Assembly: GCF_900116285.1 (NCBI RefSeq)
Contig: NZ_FPAJ01000004.1
Location: forward strand, 310,001 to 374,000
Source: Sulfitobacter marinus
GTDB lineage: Bacteria > Pseudomonadota > Alphaproteobacteria > Rhodobacterales > Rhodobacteraceae
Direction: 5' to 3'
Length of the DNA stretch: 64,000 nucleotides
Within the stretch, counting starts at the first letter, position 1; the number at the start of each line of letters is the position of its first letter. The translations under genes and the position numbers were made by a program. The notes below the pieces were generated by a model. The model searched no databases, was not told the origin of the DNA, and saw nothing but the letters and a program-made list of their open reading frames with translations. Shown piece by piece: positions 47,109 through 59,375 of this stretch.

Positions 47109-47776
47109 GGCTTTGTTGCACAAAGCGGATAAGGGATTCATGTCGTGAATCCAGTGTGGTAGCTGGTCCGCATGAGCAAACCGACACTTCCGACCTACAA
47201 GACCACGAAATGGGCTGCCGACAACGAGGCTTTGAAACGTCGCGGGTCACTGACCATCTGGTTCGATCCCGAGATGAATTGGGATGCCAAACCCTCCGAC
47301 AAGAGGGGGAGATCGCGGACCTTCAACGACGCCGCGATCCAGACGTGCCTCACGATGAAAATTCTGTTCGGGATGGCGCTACGTCAGACGACCGGCTTTG
47401 TAGAAAGTCTCCTGCGGCTGACGGGACTCGCTTGGGCCGTGCCTGACTTCAGCACCGTTTGCCGACGCTAAAGGACGCTTGCGGTCAACATTCCGCATCG
47501 TGGCACTGAGGGCCCGTTACACCTGTTGGTCGACAGCACCGGCATCAAGGTCAAGAGTGAAGGCGAATGTAACACGCGCAAGCACAGCGGCCCCAAACGG
47601 CGCGTCTGGCGCAAGATCCACATCGGAGTTGACGAGAAAATGCTGGAAATCAGAGCCGTCGAGATTACGGGCAGCAACACTCGGGATACACGGATGCTAC
47701 CTTATCTCCTCAACCAGATCCCGCACGATCAGGAGATCGGCAGCGTGATCGCGGATGGCGCATACGACACGGGCAG
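47109..47776 (+). pseudogene. IS5-family transposase remnant with nonsense codon and lost 3' end
   Basis: The left end begins with a terminal-repeat-like GGCTTTGTTGCACAAAG. The transposase frame starts at 47172 (MSKPTLPTYKTTKW). It is interrupted by TAA at 47469, in a place where relatives read Gln, and resumes in the same frame with LLVDSTGIKV (first catalytic Asp) and VIADGAYDT (second). The third catalytic Glu and the right end are missing because the sequence switches abruptly to an IS3-type transposase near 47776. Inactive. Confidence 0.85.
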
Positions 47777-51353: not shown

Positions 51354-52278
51354 ATGCGGCGAGACAAGGACATGATAGCAGCAGCCGATATGCAGCGCGC
51401 TTTGACGCAGGACCAACCTGGCGGAAAGATCAGTCTGTTTGCGCGAACGCTTCTGATCGTGGCAGCCCTCTGGACAGTATCCAGTCAAAGCTATTACGCG
51501 CTTGTGAGCGTTCTCGGGCTTGAACGGGGCTATGACGGCGCGCCGATCCTGTTCGCCGCCTACTACCTTGGCTGGGCCGCGCTGGCAGCCTGGCTGTTCC
51601 GGGCGCTGTTCGCAAACGTATTGGCGCGCGATCGCGTGGCGCGCGAAGGGCTGGCCTTGCTGCTGATCCTAGCGGCTTTCGGGCTGTTCGTCGTCTATGC
51701 TTTGCCGCTCTTGCCCGACTTCTCAGAGGTCCGCGCGCCAGGGAACCCGCCGGAGTTCATATTCGCTTCGGCCTGGGGTCCGGCACGCCGGGCGATCACT
51801 TTCATCTCGAAGGCGCTTGGCGACTATACCGAAGGCTGGCCCGATACTGTGAAGGCGGGCGACGCGGTCATTGTCGAAGGGCAGTACGGCCGCTTCACTT
51901 TCGACAATGCCAAAGAGCGCCAAATCTGGATCCGTGCCGGCATCGGCATCACGCCCTTTATCGCGCGGCTCAACCATCTGGTCGCCGCACTGGATGGCAA
52001 GAAGATTGATCCCTTCCACACGGCGCCCAAAATCGCGTCGGAGCCTCAGGCGTTGCTCGAAGCAGACGTGGCAGCGGCAGGGGTCAAGTTGCAGCTCATG
52101 CGGGATGGAACGACGGCCTTCTCGACGGTGCCCGCCTGCGCGACATGCTGCCCGACTGGACAAATGCCAGCATCTGGTTCTGGGCCCCGCCGCCTTTGGC
52201 CATGCGCTGCGTCAGGATCAGGTCGCGCACGGCCTCAAGCCCGCGGACTTTCATCAGAAACTTTTCAACATGGGCTGA
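51354..52278 (+). pseudogene. Frameshifted membrane flavin/NAD(P)H reductase (ferric-reductase FNR-type domain)
   Basis: The N-terminal part has about three hydrophobic helices. The rest resembles the FAD/NAD(P) half of ferric-reductase proteins: FASAWGPARRAITFISKALG, EGQYGRFTFDNAKERQIW and AGIGITPFIARLNHL. After about 52110 the family sequence continues in a second frame (DGLLDGARLRDMLPDWTNAS), and after about 52181 in a third (GPAAFGHALRQ, ending FHQKLFNMG at 52278). This fits two single-base losses. The first frame alone runs on into the ferredoxin gene as an artefact. Either a pseudogene or two assembly errors; the ferredoxin, cytochrome b and flavoprotein genes downstream are intact. Confidence 0.7.
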
Positions 52279-52304
52279 CGCGCGCGCACCCAAGGAGACC
52301 GCTT

Positions 52305-52514
52305 ATGACGATCAAAAGCATCAACGGCTGCATCGGCTGCGAGGAATGCGTCAAATCCTGCCCCTGCGACGTGATCCGCATGGAGGGCGGCAAGGCGGTG
52401 ATCACCTATGCCGCCGACTGCCAGATCTGCCATCTCTGCCGGATGTATTGCCCGGTCGACGCCATCGAGATGTCGCCTGAGAAATCCATCCCTGTCATCG
52501 TGCCTTGGGGTTAA
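52305..52514 (+). CDS. 2x[4Fe-4S] ferredoxin (AprB-like iron-sulfur subunit)
   Basis: 69 residues with two complete CxxCxxCxxxCP motifs (GCIGCEECVKSCPCDV and CQICHLCRMYCPVDAIEM). It resembles the iron-sulfur partners of adenylylsulfate-reductase-type or fumarate-reductase-type flavoproteins. AAGGAG precedes the ATG by 8 nt. No export signal of its own. It lies 4 bp before the membrane subunit and would relay electrons between a reductase, the membrane and the flavoprotein. Confidence 0.9.
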   Translation: MTIKSINGCIGCEECVKSCPCDVIRMEGGKAVITYAADCQICHLCRMYCPVDAIEMSPEKSIPVIVPWG

Positions 52515-52518
52515 GGCC

Positions 52519-53190
52519 ATGAAATTCACCGTTCAACGCGCCACAATCCTTGTCGCCTTGGCCATTTTCGTCGGCCTCCCGCTGATGTTCTATGCGTTTG
52601 GCGAGACCCCGCGCCGCTCGCTGCTGAAAGAGGTGATCTCCGTCGCGACGCTGCTCGCCTTCACGGCGTTGCTCGGCCAGTTCTTCATGGCGCGTAGCAA
52701 CACTTGGCTTCTGAGTGTCTTCAAGCCGGTACAGATACAAAAGGTCCACAAGTATATCGCCTACGCGGCAGTTGCGGTGATCCTGGCGCATCCTGCGCTG
52801 ATCGTTTTGCCAAGGTTTTTTGAGGGCGGCATTCGCCCGTCGGATGCACTGATCACGATGTTTACCACATTTGACAACCTCGCGCTGCTAGCGGGGTTCT
52901 TCGCATACCTGATCCTCGTGGTACTGGTCGTCACCGCCTTCTTCCGCAAGCCGATCATCAAACGCCTCGCCAGTCATTATCGCGGCTGGCGGTATGTCCA
53001 TGGTGGACTGGCTGTCAGCTTCACGGTGCTGGCACTGTGGCATTCCATCATCCTTGGCCGTCACACGGATACACCGATGTCTGCTCTGCTGCTGACACTG
53101 GCGCTGGTCGGCTTCGGGTTGCTCGCGCGGCTTTACTGGGGCGCGCAGCCCGTCAAACCCACCCCTCCGCAGAAAGGAGCCATGTCATGA
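52519..53190 (+). CDS. Ferric-reductase-like b-type membrane subunit
   Basis: 223 residues with six hydrophobic helices. Histidines suited to heme ligation occur in QKVHKYIAYAAVAVILAHPA and in RYVHGGLAVSFTVLALWHSI, two per helix pair as in ferric reductase transmembrane domains. Expected to carry electrons across the inner membrane. The stop overlaps the flavoprotein start by 4 nt. The FAD/NAD half of a classical ferric reductase is missing here and is instead found, broken, in the gene upstream. Confidence 0.85.
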   Translation: MKFTVQRATILVALAIFVGLPLMFYAFGETPRRSLLKEVISVATLLAFTALLGQFFMARSNTWLLSVFKPVQIQKVHKYIAYAAVAVILAHPALIVLPRFFEGGIRPSDALITMFTTFDNLALLAGFFAYLILVVLVVTAFFRKPIIKRLASHYRGWRYVHGGLAVSFTVLALWHSIILGRHTDTPMSALLLTLALVGFGLLARLYWGAQPVKPTPPQKGAMS

Positions 53191-54896
53191 GCGAACAAGC
53201 AGACACCGTCGCCCCCACCCGCCGCGACTTCCTCGCGCTCACCGGCGCGACGGCCGGGCTTGCCACGGTCGGTGTGGCCGGATGGGCGCAGAACGCGGCC
53301 GAGATCGACCCTGGCACCATTGCCAAAACTGACCATGCCACCGACGTGCTGGTGATCGGCGGCGGCATGGCGGGGCTTTTCGCGGCCGTGAAGGCGCATG
53401 ACGCGGGTGCCGCCACGATGATCGTTTCCAAAGGGCGATTGGGGTCTTCGGGCCTCACACCCTTTGGCAAGGGGTTCTTTGTCTTTGATCCCGAAACCGA
53501 GACCGGTAGCATCGAGGATTTCATCGACACCGTTTCACGCTCGGCGCTCGGCACTAATAACGCCACCTATACCCGCCAGCTTGCCGCGCATTCGCTCGAT
53601 CGCGCTAAAGAGCTAGAAGACTGGGGCTATTTCGACCAGACACTGGCCAACCGCCCGTTCATGAAGCCCATCGAAGAGCGCGCAATCCCCCTGCTGGAGC
53701 GGGTGACGATTACCCACCTGATCAAGGAAGGTGGCCGCATAGCAGGCGCGGCGGGCTTCCGGCTAGATGCCGAGGAAACGGTCACGATCCGGGCAAAATC
53801 CGTGATCCTGTGCACCGGGGCAGGGGGCTTCAAGCCGAACGGCTTTCCGCTGGGTGACCTGACCCATGACGGCACAGTCATGGCCTACCGGATCGGGGCC
53901 AAGGTCACGGGCAAGGAATGGAACGACGGCCACACTACCCGCGTTGACCATCCGGCGGCCACATTCGACGGGTGGGGCGACATGTTCGAGCGTGCGCCCT
54001 CCACCACCGGCGTCGAAGTGCATCACGATCTGGGTGTGGACCTGAACTACCGCGCCTACCGGCTCGGCAACCCGGTTGCGGGCGGGCCGGGGTCGCCGCC
54101 CGATGCAGAGGTCAAAGAGGTCAACGGCGGCCCAATCGTGCCGGAAGAATTCCAGCGCACATTCGACGCGCCCGCCGGTGGCGACGGCCCCCCTCCGGGC
54201 TTCGGTCCAGGTGCCAATGTCGGGGGCGCATCGGCGGGCATGGCGATCCACAAATCCGAAGGCCTGGTACCCTACAACGATCGCTGCGCTTCCAACATCC
54301 CAGGTCTCTATGCGGCAGGCGATGCACTCGGCAGTCATATGGCGGGCGGGATCTACACACAGATAGGCTCATCGCTGGCAGGCTCTGCCGTGCAAGGCGC
54401 GGTCGCGGGCGAAGCAGCAGCCGAATATGCCGCTGGTGTCGACGCCCCGACAATCCCCGACGCGCGCTTGGCTGAGATCACGGTCGACATCCTCGCCCCC
54501 TTGCGGCGCGAGGCGGGATACGGCCCCGCCTGGGTCACGCAAACGCTGCAAGGAGTGATGATCCCCAACTTCGTCCTCTACATCAAGAAAGCGTCGATGA
54601 TGCAGGCCGCGCTGGCATATATCGAGGAGCTGCGCGACCACCACGCGCCCATGCTGCGCGCGGCCAACATGCACGAGCTGCGGCTGGCGTGGGAGACGCG
54701 CAACATGATCGAGAGCGCCGAGATGAAACTGCGCGCCTCACTGTTTCGCACCGAAAGCCGGTGCAGCCACTACCGCCTCGATTATCCCGAGGTGGATGAC
54801 GAGAATTGGCGCGCCTGGATCAACATCCACCGCGGCAAAGACGGTACGATGCAGCTTACCAAACAACCCTTCGGAACTTGGCCCGAGCCAGCATGA
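53187..54896 (+). CDS. Tat-exported fumarate-reductase/succinate-dehydrogenase-type flavoprotein
   Basis: 569 residues. A twin-arginine signal (PTRRDFLALTGATAG, cleavage around residue 35) predicts export folded with FAD. The FAD motif is DVLVIGGGMAGLFAAVKA. A Gly/Pro-rich insert lies mid-protein and the flavoprotein C-terminal helical domain contains SRCSHYRLDYPEVDDENW. The family includes fumarate, urocanate and adenylylsulfate reductases and other enoate reductases; the substrate is unknown. With the ferredoxin and b-type subunit it forms a likely membrane-linked reductase or dehydrogenase. Start by 4-nt overlap (ATGA) with the membrane subunit. Confidence 0.88.
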   Translation: MSEQADTVAPTRRDFLALTGATAGLATVGVAGWAQNAAEIDPGTIAKTDHATDVLVIGGGMAGLFAAVKAHDAGAATMIVSKGRLGSSGLTPFGKGFFVFDPETETGSIEDFIDTVSRSALGTNNATYTRQLAAHSLDRAKELEDWGYFDQTLANRPFMKPIEERAIPLLERVTITHLIKEGGRIAGAAGFRLDAEETVTIRAKSVILCTGAGGFKPNGFPLGDLTHDGTVMAYRIGAKVTGKEWNDGHTTRVDHPAATFDGWGDMFERAPSTTGVEVHHDLGVDLNYRAYRLGNPVAGGPGSPPDAEVKEVNGGPIVPEEFQRTFDAPAGGDGPPPGFGPGANVGGASAGMAIHKSEGLVPYNDRCASNIPGLYAAGDALGSHMAGGIYTQIGSSLAGSAVQGAVAGEAAAEYAAGVDAPTIPDARLAEITVDILAPLRREAGYGPAWVTQTLQGVMIPNFVLYIKKASMMQAALAYIEELRDHHAPMLRAANMHELRLAWETRNMIESAEMKLRASLFRTESRCSHYRLDYPEVDDENWRAWINIHRGKDGTMQLTKQPFGTWPEPA

Positions 54897-54932: not shown

Positions 54933-56819
54933 ATGACGTTAATAGACAAAAAGAAGACCCATTCCGGTCTCGGAATTTGGGATTCTCTGAATGAGATCCC
55001 GGCCGGAACCATGTTCGTTCCGCTCGTGATAAGTGCGATCATTGTGACACTGTCCGTGCATAGCGGCCTCGGAATGTCCCTGTGGGATTACCTGGGCGAA
55101 CCGATGAAGAGCCTCTTTGGCCCTTCCGGGCAGATGCTGGTGATCGGCCTTATGTTGTTTTGCACGGGCACGATGATCTCGGGCCATGATTTCGTGGAAG
55201 TCGGCGAAAGGGGCATCTGGGTCATTTTTGCAAGGCTTTTGCCAGCATACGCGATCAGCGCGTTCGTGTTCCTCTATTTCGGCCCGGAGGGGTTCGCCGG
55301 AATCGACGCCATTACGCTGGCTTGCTGCCTGACATCGGCAAACGCCGCCTTGTATATGGGGATAATCAAACCTTATGCGGATGAACCGGACCGGGGCGCA
55401 TTCCCGATCATGTTGATCTTCTCGATGCCACTGCTACCCTTCATCTTCCTGTCGTATTTCGGAAGTGGCGGCGGCGGATTCACGAGTCAAATCATGCAGG
55501 TGCTTTCGCTCTTGCTGCCTTTTTTCCTCGGAGTTGCCTTGGGCAACCTCGACCCCAAGATCAAAGAGGTCTTCCGCGGGGGAAACACTATTCTTCTACC
55601 CTTCCTTGGGTTTCAGTTCGGCTCCACGATCGACCTCGTAGACGCCTTTCAGGCAGACATCATTGTCGTCGCGCTTCTGCTCACCGCAATCTACTGGGCC
55701 GTTACGATCATAATCCCGTTCATTGTCGATCGATACGTTCTGGGCAGGCCTGGCTATGCCGCGATGGGTTCCACCGCACTGGCGGGCGTTTCGCTCGTGC
55801 TCCCTGCCATGGTGGGCAATTTCACGTTCGATGGTCAACTCGGCTCAGTCATCACCGCGAACGCGGTCTCGATCCTTGCATTCGTCCTGTTTATCACCAA
55901 CGTTCTGTCGCCGTTCTTCACGAAATGGACAATGAACGCGTATTTCAAACACCATAAAGCCGCTGCAGAAGACGTATTTTCGCAGACACACCCTGAGCTT
56001 CTCGCCGCAGTCTACGATGAAAATGGCAATTACAGAAACCACCATCACTATCACGATATCTTCGGCCGGATTTTTCGCTCCAGGTCACATGATGACGATG
56101 GAACGCTGGTGCAGGTCTCGACGCTCAATGCCTTGATGGAAGGCGACTATCGCGGAAGCAAGACGGTCAAAGACGTCCTAAAAACCACCGATACCGGTGT
56201 CGGGACTTATGAGGGGCTCGATGGCGAGGCAATCATCTACAAGGGCCATGCCTATGTCGGAAGGGCCGATGGCGAAGTTAGTGAAATGACACCGGAGGAC
56301 ACATTCGCCTTCTCGATCACGACACGCTTCGATGAAAGCGTGGATGAGGACGAGATATCTTTCGCATCCATTGAAGATCTGAAGGCGAAGCTGGAAGAGT
56401 ACCTCGATTCACACAACTACTTCTTCATGATCAAGATGGAAGGCGTCTTTTCCGTCAGGGTCAGAAGCAACTTCAAACAAAAGCAACCCTATGAGCCGCT
56501 CTACAAGGTCGCGGGCGATCAGAGAGAATTCGAGTATCACGACATCGAAGGCGCAGTGATCGGAGTCTTTTCGCCCAACTACGTCGAAGGCATGAACCTT
56601 CCCGGTTGGCACGTTCATTTCTTGTCGAAGGATTTCAAGAAAGGCGGGCATATCCTCGAAGTGTCCGGGAAGGACGTCAAAATTAAGGTCAACAAGCTTC
56701 AGGCTTGGAAAGTCCTGATGCCAGATGATCCCGACTTCAGCACGTGGAACCTCAAGGAAGACCTGAAAGCGAAGACTGAAGCCGTTGAGGGCAAGTCGAG
56801 AACCAAGGAAACCACCTAG
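54933..56819 (+). CDS. Fusion: 2-keto-3-deoxygluconate permease domain + acetolactate decarboxylase domain
   Basis: 628 residues. Residues about 15-335 follow KdgT-family permeases, with IPAGTMFVPLV, FFLGVALGNLDPKIKE and LPFLGFQFGSTIDL, and about ten hydrophobic helices. After a His- and Asp-rich linker, residues about 385-600 match alpha-acetolactate decarboxylase: VQVSTLNALMEGDYRG, GTYEGLDGEAIIYKG, EGVFSVRVRS and the zinc site H560-x-H562 with H573 in GWHVHFLSKDFKKGGH. The spacing of the three His and the Glu and Arg active-site motifs fit active decarboxylases. One uninterrupted frame, GGAG upstream, 36 bp after the flavoprotein gene. The pairing suggests import of a 2-hydroxy-3-keto-type acid and cytosolic decarboxylation; this is inference. 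Confidence 0.88.
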   Translation: MTLIDKKKTHSGLGIWDSLNEIPAGTMFVPLVISAIIVTLSVHSGLGMSLWDYLGEPMKSLFGPSGQMLVIGLMLFCTGTMISGHDFVEVGERGIWVIFARLLPAYAISAFVFLYFGPEGFAGIDAITLACCLTSANAALYMGIIKPYADEPDRGAFPIMLIFSMPLLPFIFLSYFGSGGGGFTSQIMQVLSLLLPFFLGVALGNLDPKIKEVFRGGNTILLPFLGFQFGSTIDLVDAFQADIIVVALLLTAIYWAVTIIIPFIVDRYVLGRPGYAAMGSTALAGVSLVLPAMVGNFTFDGQLGSVITANAVSILAFVLFITNVLSPFFTKWTMNAYFKHHKAAAEDVFSQTHPELLAAVYDENGNYRNHHHYHDIFGRIFRSRSHDDDGTLVQVSTLNALMEGDYRGSKTVKDVLKTTDTGVGTYEGLDGEAIIYKGHAYVGRADGEVSEMTPEDTFAFSITTRFDESVDEDEISFASIEDLKAKLEEYLDSHNYFFMIKMEGVFSVRVRSNFKQKQPYEPLYKVAGDQREFEYHDIEGAVIGVFSPNYVEGMNLPGWHVHFLSKDFKKGGHILEVSGKDVKIKVNKLQAWKVLMPDDPDFSTWNLKEDLKAKTEAVEGKSRTKETT

Positions 56820-57797: not shown

Positions 57798-59375
57798 ATG
57801 AATATTTTTGATCGAAAGGCCTACCTCGTAGGCGGTGGTATAGGCTCTTTGGCCGCTGCCGCATTTATGATCCGCGACGGTGGGATGCCTGGTGAGAACA
57901 TTACCATCTACGAAGCCAATTCAAAGCTGGGCGGAAGCCTTGACGGGGCCGGAAATGCGGAAGATGGTTATTCGATGCGTGGTGGTCGGATGTTGACGAC
58001 CGACAATTACGAATGCACGTGGGACCTGTTTAAGACGATCCCCTCACTCACTGATCCGCAACAGTCTATCTTTGACGAAACAATCGCATTCAACAAGCGG
58101 ATGAAAGCGCATTCCAAGGCGCGATTAGTGGATCGAAATCGCTCAATCGTAGATGTAGAGTCGATGGGTTTCACGATGACGGACCGGCTGGAGTTGCTAA
58201 AACTTACTGAGGCGAGTGAAGAAAGGCTGGGCACGAGTGTCATTACTGATTGGCTCTCGCCAGAATTTTTTACCAACAAGTTTTGGTACATGTGGCAGAC
58301 GACATTTGCCTTTCAACCCTGGCATAGCGCGGTTGAATTCAAACGTTATTTACATCGCTTTATGAAAGAGTTCTCTCGAATTGAAACCCTGGCTGGCGTC
58401 AAGCGCACTGTTTACAATCAATACGATTCACTCGTTCGACCTCTGGTCGCTTGGCTCGAAGCGGAGAATGTCAACTTCCAGAACGAGTCCACTGTGACTG
58501 ACTTTGAGTTTCAAGCCAATACAGCATCTCATACGGTTGTCGGGATTAAGCTCCACCAATCCGGGCTACAAAAGACGATTTCAGTTCGGAAAGTCGATCT
58601 GGTCTTCTTTCAAAATGGCTCCATGACCGATGCATCGAGCGTAGGTTCCATGACAGAGGCCCCAAAGCGGCTAACCAAAGCCGACAGTGGCGGTTGGACG
58701 CTTTGGGAAAAATTGGCAGAGGGCCGCCCAGAATTCGGCAATCCGGCACCTTTCAACAATAGCATCCCCGAGTCCTATTGGCATTCATTTACTGTGACTC
58801 TCAAAGACACAGCCTTTTTTGACAAGATGCAGGCTTTTTCCGGCAACGAAGCTGGAACTGGAGGTCTTGTGACTTTGAAGGATTCAAACTGGCTGATGTC
58901 TGTGGTTCTGTATCATCAACCACATTTTATTGGCCAGCCCACCGACGTACAGATATTGTGGGGGTATGCGCTGCATCCCGATAGGATAGGTAACTATGTT
59001 GCTAAGCCGATGTCAGATTGCTCAGGCGAGGAGATCCTTCGGGAACTTTGTGGCCATCTCAACTTTGACATGGAGACGACTTTCGCACATGCAAACTGTA
59101 TACCATGCAGGATGCCTTACATTACAAGTATGTTTATGCCTCGTGCGCGATCTGACCGACCTCTGCCTGTTCCAAAGAATTCCAGAAATCTTGCCTTCGT
59201 AAGCCAGTTCGTTGAAGTTCCGGAAGATGTAGTTTTTACTGTTGAGTATTCGGTACGTGCGGCCCAGATGGCGGTCTATGAATTGCTTGAGATCGACCGG
59301 GAAGTACCAGCTATACTTCACCATGACAAATCTCTCAAAGTGAATTTCGATGCCGTAATTAAGGCATTCAATTAA
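57798..59375 (+). CDS. Oleate hydratase
   Basis: 525 residues. FAD-dependent enzyme that adds water to the cis-9 double bond of oleate to give 10-hydroxystearate. The N-terminal dinucleotide motif is YLVGGGIGSLAAAAFM. The active-site segment SMRGGRMLTTDNYECTWDLF carries the conserved Glu-Cys-x-Trp-Asp of the family. WQTTFAFQPWHSAVEFKRYL and YSVRAAQMAVYEL are also typical. The gene is visibly AT-richer than the flanking acetate operon and the chromosome at large, suggesting acquisition by transfer. Monocistronic; possibly controlled through the dyad at 57635. Confidence 0.93.
   Translation: MNIFDRKAYLVGGGIGSLAAAAFMIRDGGMPGENITIYEANSKLGGSLDGAGNAEDGYSMRGGRMLTTDNYECTWDLFKTIPSLTDPQQSIFDETIAFNKRMKAHSKARLVDRNRSIVDVESMGFTMTDRLELLKLTEASEERLGTSVITDWLSPEFFTNKFWYMWQTTFAFQPWHSAVEFKRYLHRFMKEFSRIETLAGVKRTVYNQYDSLVRPLVAWLEAENVNFQNESTVTDFEFQANTASHTVVGIKLHQSGLQKTISVRKVDLVFFQNGSMTDASSVGSMTEAPKRLTKADSGGWTLWEKLAEGRPEFGNPAPFNNSIPESYWHSFTVTLKDTAFFDKMQAFSGNEAGTGGLVTLKDSNWLMSVVLYHQPHFIGQPTDVQILWGYALHPDRIGNYVAKPMSDCSGEEILRELCGHLNFDMETTFAHANCIPCRMPYITSMFMPRARSDRPLPVPKNSRNLAFVSQFVEVPEDVVFTVEYSVRAAQMAVYELLEIDREVPAILHHDKSLKVNFDAVIKAFN

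Follow-up and report, generated by a model that had tools for sequence, protein, structure and literature searches.

Carriers of oxalate, malate and citrate that are coupled to decarboxylation, and the sodium-pumping decarboxylases of the OadB type, decarboxylate their cargo inside the cell, which can pull its uptake. These systems consist of separate proteins or of multisubunit complexes. SulP transporters fused to carbonic anhydrase place a permease and a cargo-converting enzyme in one chain. KdgT, the 2-keto-3-deoxygluconate (KDG) permease (PF03812, TIGR00793), is listed in the BART superfamily, and OAD_beta and KdgT both appear among the CPA/AT transporters, in the part of PMC8396727 that deals with their classification. 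Genes for acetolactate decarboxylases (ALDCs) of the AlsD/BudA kind (PF03306, TIGR01252) share their operons, alsSD or budABC, with the acetolactate synthase gene, as described in the relevant section of PMC10466699.

In the window, by which we mean the whole stretch of 64,000 nucleotides of Sulfitobacter marinus DNA analysed here, a KdgT-family permease and an ALDC form a single protein. Carrier and enzyme are thus one chain, unlike in the decarboxylation-coupled carriers and the OadB-type systems. The layout is that of the SulP-carbonic anhydrase proteins, although the permease and enzyme families are unrelated to theirs. The enzyme part has the fold, the zinc triad and the Glu and Arg positions of AlsD/BudA, but it is joined to a permease, or in other genomes adjacent to one. 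The permease part belongs to the same domain family as KdgT, yet it falls far below the equivalog cut-off of TIGR00793 (88.9 against 453.8 bits) and carries an extra conserved His-rich tail. Both families are known; what would be new is a decarboxylation-coupled importer with carrier and enzyme in one chain, together with the proposed cargo. Our literature search returned no paper combining acetolactate decarboxylase with KdgT and, among the matches listed, no acetolactate carrier, and we know of no acetolactate uptake system. In yeast, a screen of single deletion mutants failed to find such a carrier, according to the passage of PMC5678825 concerned with it.

We propose that the fusion is a membrane-tethered protein that imports and decarboxylates 2-acetolactate or a close 2-hydroxy-3-oxo acid, and we put the probability of this reading at about one half; we infer the cargo, the direction of transport and the energetics from sequence comparison.

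Domains and active site of the fused protein

The gene, its parts and the gene directly upstream are as follows:

53184..54896, + strand, flavoprotein gene upstream of the fusion, ending 36 nt before the fusion start
54933..56819, + strand, KdgT-family permease and acetolactate decarboxylase fusion gene, 628 aa (open reading frame, Pfam and NCBIfam)
54978..55934, + strand, KdgT permease domain, residues 16-334 (Pfam PF03812, E 2.5e-66)
55989..56090, + strand, His-rich tail HPELLxAVYDENGNYRxHHHxH..SH, residues 353-386, in fused and separate KdgT
56109..56756, + strand, ALDC domain, residues 393-608 (Pfam PF03306, AAL_decarboxy, E 7e-64)
56610..56651, + strand, zinc ligands H560, H562 and H573, unchanged throughout 15 module ALDCs and 7 others
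56787..56789, + strand, E619, the C-terminal Glu of the AVEG motif, invariant in 22/22 aligned ALDC sequences

The frame runs from ATG to TAG without an internal stop, and AAGGAGA precedes the ATG. With 224.6 bits against a gathering threshold of 25 for PF03812 the protein belongs to the KdgT superfamily, and PF03306 is matched at 215.6 bits (gathering threshold 25). The single-chain permease-decarboxylase announced in the preliminary description is borne out by the open reading frame and by these Pfam scores, which lie far beyond chance. That description had also proposed a structure prediction of the full chain, and this succeeded in part: in the AlphaFold model (mean pLDDT 58.3) the ALDC domain is well modelled and the permease domain is of low confidence. 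Since the model is too weak outside the ALDC domain, contacts between the domains are not readable from it.

The C-terminal domain is a predicted acetolactate decarboxylase with intact zinc-enzyme residues. The fusion passes the equivalog model TIGR01252 (190.9 bits, curated cut-off 180.65), as do the ALDCs of both Bacilli copies tested. All seven matches in a PDB sequence search belong to the ALDC family, with 4bt2 the best, and Foldseek on the predicted domain retrieved 4bt3 (E 1.3e-17, TM 0.86 by target). In the alignment to 4bt2, H560, H562 and H573 correspond to H194, H196 and H207, E432 to E65 and R511 to R145; E619 falls on E253 by extrapolation beyond the aligned end. We take these six residues of the Brevibacillus ALDC to be the catalytic ones. 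All six counterparts are invariant in the 15 module sequences and in 7 other ALDCs, the latter drawn from 16 other loci (L005, L009, L011-L013, L040-L042 and L044 being left out). The zinc triad had been placed exactly beforehand, and the Glu and Arg motifs described as intact are indeed present, E619 included; loss of active-site residues in homologues, named together with absent decarboxylase activity as grounds for rejecting the idea, was not seen in these 22 sequences. Several alignment columns set the module ALDC branch apart from other ALDCs, among them A433 for M and L556 for V.

For the permease the picture is different from the one first drawn. A 2-keto-3-deoxygluconate cargo is not borne out, as the TIGR00793 cut-off is missed widely, also by the Bacilli KdgT copy at L019 (122.5 bits), and the enzyme to which the permease is joined belongs to the acetolactate type. 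The permease is a KdgT-superfamily member whose identity as a KDG transporter is not supported. Foldseek on this part gave weak matches to bile acid symporters of the ASBT type (best 5.4e-4), in a low-confidence region of the model. The His-rich tail is conserved to the same degree as the permease core (19/34 invariant columns against 162/321, over 3 fused and 8 separate KdgT rows), and it occurs already in separate permeases, although the more distant KdgTs of L034 and L035 terminate before it. The tail may dock the ALDC enzyme. Of the KdgT rows, L015, L037, L039 and L055 were extracted and left unused, and L038, L043, L045 and L046 were not picked up. In the part of PMC8396727 that lists the KdgT family, the members are N-in with 8 helices and 2 broken helices; since an even number of membrane crossings returns an N-in chain to the inner side, the C-terminal ALDC domain would lie in the cytosol.

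Adjacent gene pairs in Bacilli and their surroundings

A scan of species genomes, which detects close relatives only, found 10 relatives, a lower bound; two are fused and eight are encoded as KdgT and ALDC in two adjoining genes. Of the hosts of these eight pairs, four are labelled as uncultured Bacilli, one each as Bacillales and Mollicutes, and two as 'uncultured bacterium' (G679 and G682); the last two turned up in the class sample of the L019 genome. In that class, 21 of 346 genomes matched: nine have both proteins (four already found, five new, at L027, L028, L031, L034 and L035), one (L036, genome G922) has a KdgT relative at 46% but no ALDC match, and 11 have distant relatives of one part. 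This brings the Bacilli-type genomes to 13, in all of which, the five new ones included, KdgT and ALDC are separate, adjacent genes. The KdgT frame of L027, a near duplicate of L028, is interrupted by an internal TGA. In the 12 pairs measured, the two genes overlap by at most 23 nt or are at most 30 nt apart. KdgT and ALDC share a reading frame at L028 and L031, with stop-to-start gaps of 30 nt and 21 nt, and such pairs could possibly be a step towards fusion. There (L028 1498-3408, L031 703-2670) the KdgT stop is the sole stop between the same-frame genes; readthrough of it was considered, and no evidence for it was found.

A divergent PucR-type regulator adjoins the pair, by homology, in all of the first eight loci. 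HTH_30 was present in all four regulators tested (L019, L028, L034 and L036; the L031 stretch is short), and the regulator weakly matches, below cut-off, the models for AdeR (43.9 bits) and for the CdaR family (20.9 bits). A GldA-type (glycerol-dehydrogenase-type) gene over cut-off adjoins the pair in 9 of 14 Bacilli genomes (the 13 with the pair plus the permease-only G922), although that of G684 carries internal stops; the other five have no such gene over cut-off. One glycerol dehydrogenase, its family not stated, is named among the enzymes of butanediol formation in Serratia sp. T241 in the corresponding part of PMC10466699. At L025 (13008-17188), five related proteins of 255-282 aa stand in a row; they have in common an N-terminus that resembles a signal sequence and the motif TW(V/I)xG.

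In a rival reading, the logic of import and decarboxylation is the same but the cargo is another: this branch of the ALDCs would have changed its substrate to some other 2-hydroxy-3-oxo acid that KdgT-type permeases carry, for example a product of sugar-acid breakdown. Relatives of KdgT are filed as sugar-acid carriers, the AdeR and CdaR-family matches of the HTH_30 regulator, weak as they are, point the same way, and so do the columns that distinguish the branch. However, the acetolactate decarboxylase cut-off is passed by the window's enzyme as well as by the two Bacilli copies tested, and every catalytic residue known to us from the family is retained, so that we regard another cargo as possible but doubtful. 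It is also conceivable that the ALDC domain serves in the cytosol to sense the substrate or to gate transport, regulating the permease through substrate binding, and that its catalysis is incidental. A tail conserved like the permease core is what would be expected of a contact surface; but full retention of the zinc ligands and catalytic residues, and an enzyme that is a separate protein in 13 Bacilli-type genomes, make a regulatory domain improbable.

The import of acetolactate, our preferred reading, also fits the metabolic setting of the Bacilli. None of the 14 Bacilli genomes yielded an acetolactate synthase over cut-off, the only match at E <= 0.001 being a 32-bit fragment in G677, and IlvC had no match in any of them; rpoB, the sole measure of completeness, was present in 13 of the 14. 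Synthase genes are rare across that class (32/346 genomes over cut-off, 53/346 with any match), and we rejected their absence as a signal of association with the module. The argument is instead a metabolic one: the ALDC in these Bacilli appears to lack a visible internal source of acetolactate. By comparison, all ten other ALDC carriers in the class of the window have synthase-family matches, nine of them over cut-off. Four Bacilli have an ALDC without this KdgT. In two of these (G873 and G933), a synthase-family gene, below cut-off, directly adjoins the ALDC; at G873:C1 and G933:C1, TGA lies inside these frames, where it perhaps reads as Trp. The other two, G947 and G1009, have marginal synthase matches only, and since they lack this KdgT as well, a missing synthase alone does not demand this transporter.

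The three genomes with the fusion possess acetolactate synthase, so that internal substrate is available there. Comparison of positions gave no synthase match within 10 kb of the fusion in any of them (G000, G675 and G676), and a GldA-type gene over cut-off is missing from all three. With a synthase and without GldA, the fusion hosts may use the protein differently from the Bacilli. A synthase beside the ALDC, the mark of an als/bud butanediol operon, was found neither over cut-off in the 14 Bacilli nor within 10 kb in the three fusion genomes. The synthase of the fusion hosts would suit a permease that works outward, exporting acetolactate or an acid product while the ALDC limits internal acetolactate. 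However, the Bacilli with the separate pair have no synthase over cut-off and no internal pool would be expected in them, and acetoin, the product of ALDC, is uncharged; we give export little credence.

Origin of the fused gene

The fusion was found in three genomes, those of the window, Leucothrix arctica and Roseibium polysiphoniae, the latter two at 83% identity and, judging by their names, presumably from different proteobacterial classes. A stop or frameshift between the domains, which would have undone the preliminary description, was not seen, and the same joined frame in two other genomes at this identity makes a sequencing error between the domains very unlikely. An artefact of assembly or sequencing, in favour of which nothing was found, was dismissed, as both further species share the joined frame with linkers 75-80% identical. 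The protein is thus a transporter-enzyme fusion, a single uninterrupted frame kept in other genomes. Between the fusions, pS stands at 0.73-1.02, close to saturation, yet 75-85% of residues agree across permease, linker and enzyme, which argues that the whole chain is under purifying selection. The GTG codon of V393 could serve as an internal start in the window, but its counterparts in the other two fusions read GTA or GTT; a conserved internal start that yields free ALDC is therefore unlikely.

The nearest plasmid matches of the window come from Paracoccus, Loktanella and similar bacteria, in keeping with an alphaproteobacterial host. The fusion gene is nearly absent around the window's own organism. 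Of 58 genomes of the genus and 295 of the family, a single one, the window's own in both samples, gave a full-length match, and among 385 genomes of the class, 11 have an ALDC, of which only that of the window lies in a frame longer than 385 aa. None of the 453 matching plasmid records covered more than 80% of the query, and the 40 plasmid matches listed concern the permease part only, at 24-28% identity. Viral contigs, searched with patterns able to reach close relatives only, held no relative of the fusion.

In trees of 15 sequences, which omit L027 (as a near duplicate of L028 with TGA in KdgT) and L036 (without ALDC), the three fusions form one clade with support of 100/100 for KdgT, 99.9/100 for ALDC and 100/100 for the joined alignment. 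Rooted on L034/L035, the trees nest this clade among separate pairs, so that fusion would be a later, single event. The nearest separate relative differs between the KdgT and ALDC trees, and support for the deeper branches is weak in part. The most economical reading is that two neighbouring genes fused once and that the product was later transferred, by a route that we can only infer. The G+C content of the fused gene is below that of its flanks at L018 (48.0% against 57.5%) and L017 (38.7% against 41.5%). In the window it is 53.0%, against an average of 56.9%. These differences run the way that an origin in A+T-rich Bacilli would predict; the signal is weak in the window because neighbours at 48.5% and 54% bracket the fusion. 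A stretch 1.4-4.2 kb before the Roseibium fusion (L018 5795-8573) encodes an AAA_22 protein and a weak, sub-cut-off match to a Mu-transposase C-terminus; it is perhaps a transposon remnant that bears on the transfer.

The flavoprotein gene upstream may perhaps be cotranscribed with the fusion, yet it appears to be part of a separate redox cassette. In Paracoccus seriniphilus, the same cassette of Fer4, ferric-reductase-like and FAD genes occurs without KdgT-ALDC and is followed by a patatin-like gene, and downstream of the close flavoprotein relatives in two genomes of the family (G391 and G516; L077 and L078) an unannotated listing of open frames gave no such fusion. A functional link between flavoprotein and fusion was rejected on these grounds, and their adjacency was taken as local. 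BLAST of the neighbours of the other two fusions against those of the window gave no match. Elsewhere in the window, a frame at 51354-52514 (+) runs from a seemingly damaged gene for a reductase-like membrane protein into a 4Fe-4S ferredoxin (Fer4_21 at residues 325-373, 31.6 bits, below the cut-off of 35), whose counterpart in Paracoccus seriniphilus is a separate 210-bp gene. An oleate hydratase is encoded at 57798-59375 (+; NF010584, 723.3 bits, cut-off 567) with a G+C content of 48.5% against 56.9% for the window. A transposase piece (PF13737) lies about 7.5 kb upstream of the fusion at 47172-47471 (+) and matches IS5-type elements on Loktanella and Ruegeria plasmids.

A proposed route from import to decarboxylation

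In the mechanism that we propose, the KdgT-family domain would import 2-acetolactate or a close 2-hydroxy-3-oxo acid, and the zinc ALDC domain, tethered to the cytosolic side of the membrane through about 58 linker residues, would convert it to acetoin and CO2. Decarboxylation would consume one cytosolic proton and turn a charged acid into neutral products, which would keep the gradient for uptake steep; the products could then exit or be reduced. That consumption of the cargo pulls its uptake is the reading with the best support. In the Bacilli, the module of PucR-type regulator, usually a GldA-type dehydrogenase, KdgT and ALDC may carry acetoin on to 2,3-butanediol, and acetolactate from outside would serve as an electron sink for cells unable to make it. 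The adjacent pair would have become a single gene once and then moved by transfer.

Tentatively, we extend this to an acetolactate uptake system by which non-producers would import the acetolactate of others for decarboxylation at the membrane, the benefit being an electron sink and possibly also proton-motive force. In the fused lineage this system would have become a single-chain importer driven by decarboxylation of its cargo. A carrier joined to its own cargo-consuming enzyme would offer a one-gene test of whether decarboxylation pulls uptake, and the gene pair of the Bacilli would suggest that microbes exchange acetolactate.
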